Of a DNA stretch of 47,804 bases, positions 13,885 to 45,648 are shown piece after piece. The DNA is from Ignavibacteria bacterium. GTDB lineage: Bacteria > Bacteroidota > Ignavibacteria > UBA10030 > SZUA-254. Under the pieces are notes generated by a model. That model worked only from the letters and a program-made list of their open reading frames with translations, was not told where the DNA came from and made no database searches. The stretch's first letter is position 1, and every line of letters starts with the position of its first letter. Made by a program: the position numbers and the translations under genes. Location: assembly GCA_016178595.1 (NCBI GenBank), contig JACOSY010000046.1:1-47804 (forward strand), in the 5' to 3' direction.

Positions 13885-13960
13885 GCTGGCGTAGCTCAGC
13901 TGGTAGAGCAGCTGACTTGTAATCAGCAGGTCGTCGGTTCGAGTCCGACCGCCAGCTCCA
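13885..13960 (+). tRNA. tRNA-Thr (anticodon TGT)
   Basis: The acceptor GCTGGCG (13885-13891) pairs with CGCCAGC (13950-13956). The anticodon loop is CTTGTAA between CTGA/TCAG arms, giving TGT. T-arm GTCGGTTCGAGTCCGAC is canonical. CCA is encoded (13958-13960). First of four tRNAs in the order Thr-Tyr-Gly-Thr, matching E. coli thrU-tyrU-glyT-thrT. Confidence 0.95.
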
Positions 13961-14083
13961 CGGAGAAACTGTTTACGGAACGAGAAGTGCAATCAGGTGG
14001 TTCCGGATACTCTTCGAGTGACAAGCAAAATTTTGATGCGGGCAGGTACGGATTTATGAAAAGGATGCCCGATTAAGTTGAGC

Positions 14084-14166
14084 GGGCAGGTAGCGAAGCG
14101 GTCAAACGCAACAGACTGTAAATCTGTCGGCTTCGGCCTTCGGAGGTTCGAATCCTTCCCTGCCCA
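14084..14166 (+). tRNA. tRNA-Tyr (anticodon GTA)
   Basis: Acceptor GGGCAGG (14084-14090) pairs with CCTGCCC (14159-14165). The anticodon stem/loop CAGACTGTAAATCTG gives GTA. A long variable arm (CGGCTTCGGCCTTCG) marks a class II tRNA. The T-arm is GGAGGTTCGAATCCTTCC. CCA is not encoded. Confidence 0.95.
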
Positions 14167-14241
14167 CATAAAGTATGATAGAAAATTATGTAGTACGAAT
14201 CGAATGTGGGCGAATAAGAGTTGGAGATTTGAATCTTGCTT

Positions 14242-14314
14242 GCGGGAGTAACTCAGTTGGTAGAGTCACAGCCTTCCAAGCTGTTGGTCGCGGGTTCGAG
14301 TCCCGTCTCCCGCT
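14242..14314 (+). tRNA. tRNA-Gly (anticodon TCC)
   Basis: Acceptor GCGGGAG (14242-14248) pairs with CTCCCGC (14307-14313). The anticodon arm CAGCCTTCCAAGCTG gives TCC. The T-arm GCGGGTTCGAGTCCCGT is canonical. CCA is not encoded. Confidence 0.95.
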
Positions 14315-14324
14315 CTGCGTTTTT

Positions 14325-14397
14325 GCTTGCGTAGCTCAGTTGGTAGAGCACATCCTTGGTAAGGATGAGGTCATCGGTTCAATCCCGATCGCAAGCT
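14325..14397 (+). tRNA. tRNA-Thr (anticodon GGT)
   Basis: Acceptor GCTTGCG (14325-14331) pairs with CGCAAGC (14390-14396). The anticodon arm CATCCTTGGTAAGGATG gives GGT. The T-arm has TTCAATC in place of the usual TTCGAATC-type loop. Only 10 bases separate it from tRNA-Gly; CCA is not encoded. Confidence 0.95.
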
Positions 14398-14436
14398 CGG
14401 CGATCAGTACAATAACCGAGAATGGAGTTGTCAGCA

Positions 14437-14586
14437 ATGCGAGACATTATCACACTCGAATGTTCCGAGTGCAAGCGACGGAACTATACGACGACAAAAA
14501 ATAAGAAGAAACAATCAGGCCGCGTCGAGTACAAGAAGTACTGCGGATGGTGCAACAAACGAACTTCGCATAAAGAGACGAAGTAA
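14437..14586 (+). CDS. rpmG: 50S ribosomal protein L33
   Basis: A 49-residue protein beginning [20 protein letters not shown]. It has two CxxC pairs (C9/C12 and C36/C39) that form a zinc ribbon, so this is the zinc-binding (C+) form of L33. GGAG lies 9 bases before the ATG at 14437; an in-frame ATG at 14422 would add five residues without support. It sits between tRNA-Thr(GGT) and tRNA-Trp, where many bacteria carry a tuf copy. L33 contacts the E-site region of the 50S subunit. Confidence 0.95.
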
Positions 14587-14594
14587 CGCGTTCA

Positions 14595-14670
14595 CACGTC
14601 AGTAGCTCAATTGGCTAGAGCAGCGGTCTCCAAAACCGCAGGTTGGGGGTTCAAGTCCCTCCTGACGTGC
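14595..14670 (+). tRNA. tRNA-Trp (anticodon CCA)
   Basis: Acceptor CACGTCA (14595-14601) pairs with TGACGTG (14663-14669). The anticodon arm CGGTCTCCAAAACCG gives CCA. The T-arm is GGGGGTTCAAGTCCCTC. The tRNA-Trp-secE-nusG order is a common bacterial arrangement. The 3' CCA is not encoded. Confidence 0.93.
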
Positions 14671-27075: not shown

Positions 27076-29178
27076 ATGGCAAGAATATATCCATTAGAAC
27101 GGACACGAAACATCGGTATCATGGCACACATCGATGCGGGGAAGACCACAACGACTGAGCGAATTCTTTTCTACACGGGAGTTCTGCATCGGATGGGTGA
27201 GGTGCATGATGGCGCAGCGACGATGGATTGGATGGAACAAGAGAAAGAGCGGGGGATTACAATTACCAGCGCCGCAACGACGTGTTTCTGGAACAATCAC
27301 CGCATCAATATCATCGATACGCCGGGCCACGTCGATTTCACAGTCGAAGTCGAACGCTCGCTTCGCGTCCTTGATGGTGCTGTTGCACTGTTCTGTGCCG
27401 TTGGTGGTGTCGAACCACAGTCTGAGACTGTGTGGCGCCAGGCCGATAAGTATGGTGTGCCGCGATTAGCCTTCGTGAACAAGATGGATCGCGTGGGCGC
27501 TGATTTCTTTAATGTCATTGCGATGATGAAGAGCCGGCTCGGTGCGAATGCCGTACCGATCCAGATTCCCGTCGGTGAAGGCGATATATTCACCGGCTTC
27601 ATCGATCTTATCACGATGAAGGCGCGAATTTTCCACGAAGGCAACAAAGGTATAACGTGGGATGATATGGATATTCCTCACGATCTGCGGCGGCTTGCAC
27701 AAGAGTGTAGGACGAAGATGCTCGAAGCCGTCTCGGATGAGGACGATACGCTTCTCGAAAAATACCTTGAAGGAAAAGAGATTTCTCCGGCAGAAGTTCG
27801 GGCAGTTCTTCGCCGTGCATGTCTAAAGGTGAGTATCATTCCTGTTCTCTGTGGTTCTTCCTTTAAAAACAAGGGCGTGCAGGCTCTTCTTGATGCCGTC
27901 ATCGATTTTCTTCCATCGCCAAGCGATGTTTCTGCTGGCGAGATCACCGGTCATCACGTCAATATGAAGGATCACATCGTCCGAAAAGTGGATGACAAGG
28001 AAAAGGTGACGACGCTCGCGTTCAAGATTATGACGGACCCGTATGTCGGTCGATTGACATTCGTCCGGGTGTACACGGGTACGTTGGCAACGGGTTCGTA
28101 CATCTACAATACTACGTCCGAGCGGAAGGAACGTGTCGGTCGTCTTCTCCGCATGCACGCGAACCATCGCGAAGATATCGATGAGGCATACTCTGGTGAT
28201 ATCGTTGCCGTTGTCGGACTGAAGCATACCAAGACCGGCGATACACTCTGTGATGATAAAGATCCTATCGTTCTCGAGAAAATGGTGTTCCCCGAGCCTG
28301 TTATTTCCGTGGCAATAGAGCCCAAGACGAAGGCTGATCAGGAAAAGATGGGTGAAGCGCTCTCCAAGCTTGCTGACGAGGATCCGACGTTTCGGATTTC
28401 AACCAACGAAGAAACCGGTCAAACAATTATTAGCGGAATGGGCGAGCTTCACCTGGAAATCATCATCGATCGCATGAAGCGTGAATTCAGAGTCGAGGCC
28501 AATGTCGGTAAGCCGCAGGTTGCGTACAAAGAAACTATCCGCAAGAAAGTTACGCAGGAAGGAAAGTTTATCCGTCAGTCCGGTGGGCGTGGTCAGTTCG
28601 GTCATGTCTGGATTGAGCTTGAACCTAACGAAAAGGGTAAGGGTTACGAATTCGACAATGCAATCGTTGGCGGTGCCATTCCGAAAGAGTATATCAATCC
28701 GGTCTCTGAAGGCATCCAGGAAGCGATGCGCAATGGTGTTCTCGCCGGGTATCCGGTTGAAGATGTAAAGGTCAAGCTCATCGATGGTTCCTACCACGAC
28801 GTCGATTCATCCGAAATGGCGTTCAAGATCGCCGGCTCAATAGCTTTCAAAGAAGCCGCACGCAAGGCCCATCCCGTCCTTCTTGAGCCGATAATGGATG
28901 TCGAGGTGGTTACACCCGAAGAGTACATGGGTGATGTTATGGGTGACCTTAGCTCTCGCCGCGGCAAAATCGAAGGTCTTATGGCCCGCAAGGATGCTCA
29001 GGTTATTAAAGCGAAGGTTCCACTCTCAGAAATGTTTGGTTACTCGACAACACTGCGATCGATGACCCAGGGCCGCGCGATCTACACAATGCAATTCGGC
29101 TTTTATGAAGAAGTTCCGCAGAGTGTCTCCGATCAGATTATCGAAAAAGTCAAAGGTAAGGAAGCAATTCCGGCATAA
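27076..29178 (+). CDS. fusA: translation elongation factor G
   Basis: 700 residues. GTPase motifs: AHIDAGKTT (17-25), [16 protein letters not shown] (81-85) and NKMDR. Domains II-V follow in normal order, with the domain IV stretch [16 protein letters not shown] and the C-terminal [20 protein letters not shown]-type segment (here [20 protein letters not shown]). EF-G drives translocation of tRNA and mRNA and, with RRF, ribosome recycling. The C-terminus and length match canonical EF-G, not a tetracycline-protection paralog. Confidence 0.98.
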
Positions 29179-29228: not shown

Positions 29229-30440
29229 ATGGCGAAAGAAAAATTTAACAGATCAAAACCTCACGTGAATGTGGGCACGATTGGTCACATCGACCATGGC
29301 AAGACGACGCTCACCGCTGCGATCACCATGACGTTGTCGAAAAAAGGTCTCGCGCAGGTTCGTACCTTTGACAGCATCGACAACGCGCCGGAAGAGCGCG
29401 AACGTGGTATCACAATCGCGGTCGCTCACGTTGAATACGAGACTGACAAGCGACACTATGCACACGTCGATTGCCCCGGTCACGCAGACTATATCAAAAA
29501 CATGATCACCGGTGCAGCCCAGATGGATGGCGCGATCCTCGTTGTTGCCGCGAATGACGGCCCTATGCCGCAGACACGTGAGCATATCCTGCTCGCCCGT
29601 CAGGTCGGCGTTCCCCGTATCGTCGTCTTCTTGAACAAGGTCGACATGGTTGATGATCCGGAACTCATTGAGCTTGTTGAAATGGAATTACGCGATCTTC
29701 TCAAGAAGTATGAATTCCCTGGCGATGAAATTCCCATCGTTCGTGGCAGTGCCCTGAAAGCGATGGAAGCTGCAGTTCGTGCAGACTCGAAGCCCGACGA
29801 TCCGGCTTTCAAACCGATCTTTGAGTTGATGAACGCTGTCGATAGTTACATCCCGATTCCGAAGCGTGATATTGACAAGCCCTTCCTGATGCCAATCGAG
29901 GATGTATTCTCGATTACCGGTCGTGGTACCGTTGGTACTGGCCGTGTCGAACGGGGTCGGGCAAAAGTCGGTGATGAAGTCGAGGTCATTGGTCTCGGTG
30001 CACATAAAAAGACTGTCATTACCGGCGCCGAGATGTTCCGCAAAGAACTTGATGAGGTGCAGGCAGGTGACAACGCCGGAATGCTTCTCCGCGGTGTTGA
30101 AAAGAACGAGCTGGAACGCGGTATGGTGATCGCCAAGCCCGGCTCGATCACACCACACAAAAAGTTCACTGCTCAGGTATACGTCTTGAAGAAAGAGGAA
30201 GGTGGACGTCATACCCCATTCTTCAACGGCTACCGCCCGCAGTTTTACTTCCGTACAACTGACGTGACTGGCGTTGCAACAATGCCGGCTGGAACCGAGA
30301 TGGTTATGCCGGGCGACAACGTTGACAATCTCAGCGTTGAGCTCATCGCACCGATCGCTATGGAAGAAGGACTCCGCTTCGCAATTCGCGAAGGGGGACA
30401 TACAGTTGGTGCAGGAGTCGTTACGAAGATTCTTGAATAA
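29229..30440 (+). CDS. tuf: translation elongation factor Tu
   Basis: 403 residues. GHIDHGKTT (19-27), [17 protein letters not shown] (80-84), NKVDM and GSALKA make a complete GTPase domain, and domains II and III end [14 protein letters not shown]-Tu brings aminoacyl-tRNA to the A site. It is about nine residues longer than E. coli EF-Tu, with the extra length near [26 protein letters not shown] precedes the ATG. This is the only tuf in the window; none lies in the upstream tRNA cluster. Confidence 0.98.
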
Positions 30441-38298: not shown

Positions 38299-38667
38299 AT
38301 GATTAAGAAGTCGAGAATCAATCAGCGAAGGCGGGTGAAGACACGTGTACGCAAGACGATTCAGGGCACGACAGAGTGCCCGCGTCTGACGGTCTACCGT
38401 AGTTTGCATCATCTTTACGCACAGATAGTGGATGATGGGCAAGCGAAGACCATCGCATCTGTGTCCACACTGTCGAAGGATTTGCGCGATCAGGTCAAAG
38501 ATGTGAAAGGCCGTAGGGAACGTGCGAAGCGCGTCGGATCGGAAGTTGCAAAGAAAGCACTCGAACAAAACATCAAGCGAGTCGTTTTCGATCGGAACGG
38601 ATACATGTACCACGGAGTCGTCAAGGCAATTGCTGACGGCGCCCGGGAAGCCGGATTGCAATTCTGA
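38299..38667 (+). CDS. rplR: 50S ribosomal protein L18
   Basis: 122 residues. RLTVYRSLHHLYAQIVDD, VAKKALEQNIKRVVFDRNGY and VKAIADGAREAGLQF identify L18, a 5S rRNA-binding protein. Length is normal. The stop is followed not by rpsE but by 36 bases and a tRNA-Gln gene. Confidence 0.97.
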   Translation: MIKKSRINQRRRVKTRVRKTIQGTTECPRLTVYRSLHHLYAQIVDDGQAKTIASVSTLSKDLRDQVKDVKGRRERAKRVGSEVAKKALEQNIKRVVFDRNGYMYHGVVKAIADGAREAGLQF

Positions 38668-38703
38668 TACCCACCGGCGAACATGGCCACGCCACTTCGT
38701 CAT

Positions 38704-38774
38704 TGCCGGGTCGTCTAACGGCAGGACAGCGCCCTTTGGAGGCGTCAGTGGAGGTTCGAATCCTCCCCCGGCAG
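38704..38774 (+). tRNA. tRNA-Gln (anticodon TTG) inside the spc operon
   Basis: Acceptor TGCCGGG (38704-38710) pairs with CCCGGCA (38767-38773). The D-stem is GTC/GAC. The anticodon arm GCGCC-CTTTGGA-GGCGT gives TTG. The T-arm GGAGGTTCGAATCCTCC is perfect. CCA is not encoded. It lies between rplR and rpsE on the same strand, without a convincing promoter or terminator of its own, and is followed by an AT-rich stretch (38777-38812). Confidence 0.92.
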
Positions 38775-38824
38775 CAAAAGAAATTAAAATTTTAAATTTC
38801 GAATTTTTATAACTGGAGCAAAAA

Positions 38825-39364
38825 GTGGCAAGAATCAAAGCAGGCGAATTAGAGCTGAAGGATCGGCTGGTCCACATCAACCGTGTTGCAAAAGTCGTCA
38901 AGGGCGGACGCCGGTTTAGTTTCAGCGCAATCGTTGTCGTTGGTGATGGCAACGGCCATGTTGGCGTCGGGCTTGGAAAGGCCAATGAAGTGCAGGATGC
39001 GATTTCAAAAGGAGTCGACGATGCGAAGAAAAACGTCGTGAAGGTGAACGTCGTGAACGGTACCCTCCCGCACTCGGTACTTGCAAAGTATCGTGCATCG
39101 AGAGTATTGCTCAAGCCGGCCTCGCCTGGCACGGGACTCATCGCCGGCGGCGGCGTCCGCGCAGTGCTCGAGTCGGCAGGAGTGAGGGACGTTCTCACCA
39201 AGTCTATCGGCTCAACGAACCCTCATAATGTGGTGAAGGCGACAATGACCGCGCTGATGAGTTTAACGGATGCACGCTCAGTGGCACGACGTCGCGGCAT
39301 GACACTGACCGAACTCTTTAAGCAACCAGCTCTGGCGTCGGCATCGGAAGTTCCCGCGAATTAA
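38825..39364 (+). CDS. rpsE: 30S ribosomal protein S5
   Basis: 179 residues from GTG 38825 ([20 protein letters not shown]), with TGGAGC upstream. [40 protein letters not shown] and [13 protein letters not shown] are conserved. S5 takes part in decoding accuracy and lies at the mRNA entrance. Spacing to rplR (157 bases) is far larger than elsewhere in the operon because of the tRNA insertion. Confidence 0.97.
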
Positions 39365-45153: not shown

Positions 45154-45648
45154 ATGCGACATAGAAAATCAGGACGAAAGCTCAAACGCACCGCAAGTCA
45201 CCGGAAGGCGACATTGATCGCGCTTGCGACGGCGCTCATCAGGAATAAAAAGATCAAGACCACCGTTGCGAAGGCGAAGGAGACGCGGATGTTCGTGGAA
45301 AAAATCCTCACGCGCGCCAAGAACGCCGTTGCCACCGAAGGCGAAAAGAAAAATATCCATGCACGCAGGCTCGTTGCGCGGTACATCAAAGACCGCAGCG
45401 TGATTAAAGAGCTGTTCGGTGAGATCGCCCAGAAGATTGCCAGCCGGCCCGGCGGCTACACACGCGTGGTGAAGTTAGGCCAGCGTCAGGGCGACGGCGC
45501 TGAAGTTGCGATCCTCGAGCTTATCGACTACAATACCGGCGAAGCGCCCGCCAAGGCGAAGCAGGACAAGGAAAAGAAGAAGAAAGAGAAAGAAAAAGCG
45601 AAAAAGGAAAAGAAATTCGCACCCGGCGCAGTAACCGACATGCCGTAA
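45154..45648 (+). CDS. rplQ: 50S ribosomal protein L17 with charged tail
   Basis: 164 residues. The core (MRHRKSGRKLKRTASHRKAT; LIRNKKIKTTVAKAKETRMF; IKELFGEIAQKIASRPGGYT) is standard for about 125 residues. A Lys/Glu-rich extension (KQDKEKKKKEKEKAKKEKKF) follows, probably disordered. L17 lies at the tunnel exit. It is the last gene of the supercluster and is followed by a strong terminator. Confidence 0.96.
   Translation: MRHRKSGRKLKRTASHRKATLIALATALIRNKKIKTTVAKAKETRMFVEKILTRAKNAVATEGEKKNIHARRLVARYIKDRSVIKELFGEIAQKIASRPGGYTRVVKLGQRQGDGAEVAILELIDYNTGEAPAKAKQDKEKKKKEKEKAKKEKKFAPGAVTDMP

Follow-up and report, generated by a model that had tools for sequence, protein, structure and literature searches.

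The junction between the L18 and S5 genes of the spc operon is among the most conserved gene neighbourhoods in bacteria. Why, then, does a tRNA gene lie within it in an Ignavibacteria bacterium (assembly GCA_016178595.1), and what might it do there? The window analysed here is the whole of a 47,804-nucleotide stretch (contig JACOSY010000046.1), which carries a standard str-S10-spc-alpha cluster from fusA at 27076 to rplQ at 45648. A first-pass annotation, made from the sequence alone, had described a complete tRNA-Gln(TTG) between rplR and rpsE. Two methods agree with that call: ARAGORN finds the complete gene on the same strand as its two neighbours, with its end at 38774 or 38775, and the match to Rfam RF00005 reaches a good covariance score of 59.2 bits against a gathering score of 29 (E 2.1e-10). 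The neighbours on either side are securely identified as L18 and S5 (Table 1).

Table 1. Features of the rplR-rpsE junction, in coordinates of the window.
Feature	Position	Strand	Remarks
rplR (L18), upstream neighbour of the tRNA	38299..38667	+	TIGR00060, 132 bits
Leader, 36 nt, from L18 stop codon to tRNA 5' end	38668..38703	+	Folds well in the window (z about -2.6); hairpin not conserved
tRNA-Gln(TTG)	38704..38774	+	Anticodon 38736-38738; U1-A72 pair; G73 discriminator 38774
AT-rich trailer, the 5' leader of rpsE	38775..38824	+	GGAG ribosome-binding site 38815-38818
rpsE (S5), downstream neighbour of the tRNA	38825..39364	+	GTG start; TIGR01021, 219 bits

Judged by sequence only, the tRNA has the glutamine identity elements U1-A72, G73 and the anticodon UUG, and is predicted to be charged accordingly; the 3' CCA is not encoded. 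The gap that holds it, 157 nt long, exceeds every other truly non-coding gap of the S10-spc-alpha cluster, in which the remaining gaps are mostly 2-57 nt and the infA-rpsM gap (148 nt) contains rpmJ. The 49 nt on the 3' side of the tRNA have a GC content of 16%, the lowest of any 49-mer in the cluster (cluster mean 52%). The description of this stretch as unlike the rest of the operon is thus accurate for the window, but does not extend to relatives, where the composition is not conserved and is often richer in GC; the stretch is the leader of rpsE with its GGAG site. Elsewhere in the window, a tRNA cluster at 13885-14670, Thr(TGT)-Tyr-Gly(TCC)-Thr(GGT)-Trp, lacks the tuf gene often found there, and tuf is located at 29229-30440, after fusA.

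The arrangement was then sought in relatives. Forty were taken, with S5 found in 37 and evaluable in 36. In 31 of these 36, the tRNA immediately precedes S5 and shares its strand; all five exceptions belong to a single family (f6) with an L18-S5 gap of 16-31 nt, and the gap in tRNA-bearing genomes is 99-222 nt. A class-wide search for a pattern linking a tRNA T arm with S5 coding sequence gave matches in 89 of the 245 class genomes, and the covariance model R1 added 12 more with a tRNA between L18 and S5 (G262 and 11 members of family f10). The class total is at least 101 of 245 genomes in 10 families, and family f3, from the first set of relatives, makes an eleventh. In a sample of the phylum, the T arm-S5 pattern gave 28 matches, every one of them within this class; the 149 sampled genomes from other classes gave none. 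Named loci that carry the tRNA include those of Ignavibacterium sp. and one Melioribacteraceae genome, and it is not seen in those of Chlorobiaceae, Chloroherpeton, Calditrichia, KSB1, Neomarinimicrobiota or Bacteroidota proper. The survey suggested by the first-pass annotation therefore recovers the same insertion widely, and its framing of the locus as the oddity of one genome was wrong: the arrangement is old and lineage-wide, the lineage being a large uncultured group within the Ignavibacteria.

Does this tRNA have a counterpart elsewhere in the genome? The assembly (G000; 3.1 Mb, 61 contigs, 96.9% complete) gave 43 Rfam tRNA matches, and the anticodon was read from each. Gln(TTG) occurs once, as the spc copy, and Gln(CTG) once, on a different contig, so the suspicion that this is the sole tRNA-Gln(TTG) is borne out across the whole assembly. 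Relatives likewise have a single Gln(TTG) copy. One tRNA-Lys is absent from the tRNA list of the assembly, probably falling at a contig end, and it is unlikely that a second Gln(TTG) copy is hidden in an assembly gap. A UUG anticodon is required to decode CAA, and the genes of the cluster use 54 CAA and 131 CAG codons; the spc tRNA is the only decoder found in the cell for the glutamine codon CAA.

The canonical bacterial tRNA-Gln(UUG) of sister lineages has the same anticodon, U1-A72 pair, G73 and decoding task as the spc tRNA, which differs from it in its D arm (GTCTAAYGG..AGGAC), its 4-nt variable loop and its place inside the spc operon. The window tRNA itself falls outside the canonical family, with a D arm beginning GTCTAA and a 4-nt variable loop against the canonical D arm and 5-nt loop, and the canonical pattern is absent from G000 with up to three mismatches allowed. 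In the tRNA-less relatives tested (family f6, L078, and the outgroups L070, L071, L083 and L111), a canonical Gln(TTG) of the TGGGG..GCCAAG type sits elsewhere in the genome. We see the canonical type in 112 of the same 245 class genomes and the spc type in 89, with an overlap of 0 against about 41 expected under independence; these genomes are related, so numbers of genomes do not stand for numbers of events, but the split follows whole families. That no genome has both types indicates that the spc tRNA replaced the usual gene.

The tRNA is well preserved across the lineage. In each of 26 distinct spc tRNA sequences the 21 stem pairs are all standard, and nine of the 21 show changes on both sides, a number as high being reached in none of 500 shuffles. 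In the alignment of these 26 sequences U1-A72 is invariant, and the anticodon loop is kept except for the anticodon of one genome, G018. There, the spc tRNA (L059:1380-1451; G018:C46:24847-24918) reads GTG instead of TTG, a difference of one base; a normal tRNA-His is present, no other Gln(TTG) was found in that genome, and the change reflects either faulty sequencing or a genuine loss of the decoder for CAA.

Several further variants were observed. The spc tRNA of G225 has A1-U72 as its first pair. In G190 and G223 (L208:1332-1572 and L210:1501-1779), the rplR-rpsE gap holds Gln(TTG) and, behind it, Gln(CTG), evidently through tandem duplication and an anticodon change, which places both glutamine anticodons in the spc operon. 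The gap tRNA of G247 (L218:601-672) has the anticodon TTG but a body of another type, with a GTGTAATGGTAGCAC D arm and A1-U72, which suggests exchange or remodelling of the gene at an unchanged position. A similar tRNA body is found in G229, of the same family, at a locus without L18 or S5 nearby.

To place these events in order, trees were built from eight proteins of the one locus, giving a quick tree in which many deep forks are weakly to moderately supported. The presence and absence of the spc tRNA needs three changes on this tree, which would most simply be one gain and two losses. A single gain without loss was also considered and rejected, as an AU test on the same quick tree rejects the tRNA-bearing rows as one clade (p-AU 0.004). 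Two tRNA-less lineages, family f6 and the family of L078, are nested in the tree and have the canonical gene, which makes a loss of the spc copy probable in both. Given the weak deep support and the one-locus tree, this sequence of gain and loss is offered as a reading, not as a firm order.

The explanation that we favour, with a probability of roughly 0.8, is that an early-settled gene for the sole CAA decoder is co-transcribed in the S10/spc mRNA and excised from it, with S5 translated from its own GGAG site. Early in the history of a large Ignavibacteria lineage, a tRNA-Gln(UUG) gene would have come to lie between rplR and rpsE and taken over from a canonical gene located elsewhere. The tRNA would be transcribed as part of the S10/spc mRNA and then fold, RNase P would cut at 38704, and processing of the 3' end around 38774 would be followed by addition of CCA. 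S5 and the later genes would be translated from the GGAG site in the 50-nt trailer and not by coupling to L18. Indirect support for co-transcription comes from relatives with little space around the gene. In eight loci (L072, L079, L080, L082, L097, L125, L056 and L060) the tRNA starts 4-8 nt past the L18 stop codon, and in L082 only 20 nt, with a GGAG site among them, separate the tRNA from S5. In such short-leader relatives the genes share a strand and there is no room for separate promoters, except inside rplR, so RNase P and 3' processing most likely release the tRNA from the spc message. The 36-nt leader and trailer of about 50 nt in the window are themselves in principle long enough to hold promoters. 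We infer co-transcription, excision of the tRNA and splitting of the mRNA. Unless the tRNA has a further promoter, its supply would also be coupled to the transcription of the ribosomal-protein genes. As a rough estimate, a yield of one stable tRNA from each ribosomal-protein transcript would amount, in order of magnitude, to a thousand molecules per generation, close to what E. coli has of one tRNA-Gln species.

With respect to the processing enzymes, no protein of the assembly scores above the curated RNase Z cut-off. The best candidate (G000:C34:22914-23666; L255:1429-2325) is an MBL-fold protein with 79 bits against a cut-off of 293, and the genome may be without a standard RNase Z. We also considered the leader hairpin as a protective 3' end, and set this aside because the hairpin, strong in the window, is not conserved in relatives.

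The position might in addition serve as a regulatory device, a reading that would extend the favoured explanation and does not oppose it. Translational coupling is known in the spc operon of E. coli; here, excision would cut the mRNA such that the S10-L18 and S5-L17 parts differ in stability and escape coupling of that type. The 99-222 nt between L18 and S5, with a folded tRNA among them, make coupled re-initiation unlikely, and the position has been retained in 11 families. However, the hairpin of the leader lacks conservation, lineages that have no tRNA here manage without such a device, and the S5 start with its GGAG site is already present in tRNA-less KSB1, Calditrichia and Neomarinimicrobiota, and so did not evolve with the tRNA. 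The rpsE start codon is mostly TTG or GTG in tRNA-bearing genomes and ATG in their tRNA-less sisters, but the idea that it changed because of the tRNA fails, as outgroups without the tRNA also have TTG or GTG with GGAG; the capacity of S5 for independent initiation is, for the same reason, older than the tRNA. We consider a regulatory device possible, though not probable. That the tRNA is a fixed processing mark, dividing the S10-spc mRNA into two messages under separate control, tying CAA decoding to the rate of ribosomal-protein transcription and held by selection since early in the lineage, seems to us on the unlikely side.

Alternatively, the operon could be split by transcription and not by RNA processing, with a promoter for the tRNA in the end of rplR or the leader and one for rpsE in the AT-rich trailer. 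The trailer of the window is indeed very AT-rich, long enough at about 50 nt, and contains a TATAAC-like box. A start set by that box would remove the GGAG site, however, and a promoter and terminator scan of the window found no excess, promoter-like sites being no commoner than in shuffled sequence (2 against 1.0 +/- 1.0). The short leaders (4-8 nt) and trailers (as little as 20 nt) of relatives also argue against separate units, which we judge improbable.

A further reading takes the unusual tRNA body as the mark of a switch in charging, where a tRNA-Glu-like D arm (U11-A24, U13-G22) and the 4-nt variable loop would suit a non-discriminating GluRS with GatCAB instead of GlnRS. Both features do resemble tRNA-Glu and differ from canonical tRNA-Gln. 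Over its whole length, though, the spc tRNA is nearest to canonical Gln tRNAs, with 0.76-0.78 as against about 0.68-0.74 for Glu, and G000 encodes a GlnRS (TIGR00440, 785 bits). Within the order, most genomes contain GlnRS, whether their family has one tRNA type or the other, and its absences are scattered over both. As GlnRS occurs alongside both tRNA types, a switch to GluRS/GatCAB charging is unsupported, and we regard it as very improbable. Descent of the spc tRNA from a tRNA-Glu is likewise not favoured, its D arm being Glu-like yet its whole length nearer to the canonical Gln tRNAs. No GlnRS match at E 1e-60 was found in G028, G039, G238, G251 and G258 (f5), G035 (f4), or G019, G037 and G207 (f6); these genomes are mostly complete and have GlnRS-positive close relatives, a pattern of scattered GlnRS loss within the order.

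Finally, tRNA genes are frequent attachment sites and the contig of G009 happens to end inside the spc tRNA, but we can practically dismiss the idea that the site is an assembly join, which the first-pass annotation had named as a danger, or that the tRNA serves as the attachment site of a mobile element, because the same arrangement recurs in over 100 genomes assembled independently, including the single-contig assemblies G150, G155, G181, G183, G192, G206 and G209, and intact rplR and rpsE directly flank the tRNA. A plasmid search returned nothing useful.

We thus return to the favoured explanation, in which the spc tRNA is an early-settled, co-transcribed and excised decoder of CAA. In at least 11 families, a sole and presumably essential tRNA is built into the L18-S5 junction, and this tRNA and the usual gene strictly exclude one another. 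Close sister families that have or lack the tRNA provide a clear natural experiment on how ribosomal proteins are controlled across the operon when their message has to be cut mid-way, and the spc tRNA is a simple genomic marker of the lineage. No report of a tRNA inside the spc operon was found in the open-access literature, which is weak evidence of novelty, subscription papers being mostly outside that search. Co-transcripts of tRNA and mRNA are already known; on this weak evidence, an ancient, sole tRNA inside the spc operon appears to be new.

Among known systems, the animal mitochondrion offers one likeness, in that tRNAs between coding genes mark the places where the mRNA is cut; unlike that case, we deal here with one tRNA in one bacterial operon, and with cutting that is predicted. 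Closer are the tRNA-mRNA operons of E. coli, namely thrU-tyrU-glyT-thrT-tufB, metY-nusA-infB and secG-leuU. The secG-leuU paper (Mohanty and Kushner 2008) is cited in PMC3985628. As in those operons, tRNA and protein genes would share one transcript, and the 5' cut by RNase P would also cut the mRNA. In E. coli the tRNA stands at the edge of the unit or beside genes for translation factors or secretion, whereas here it stands in the middle of the spc ribosomal-protein operon. A further difference from the E. coli cases is that no other decoder was found for the codon of the spc tRNA, which appears to have replaced the canonical gene across a large lineage.
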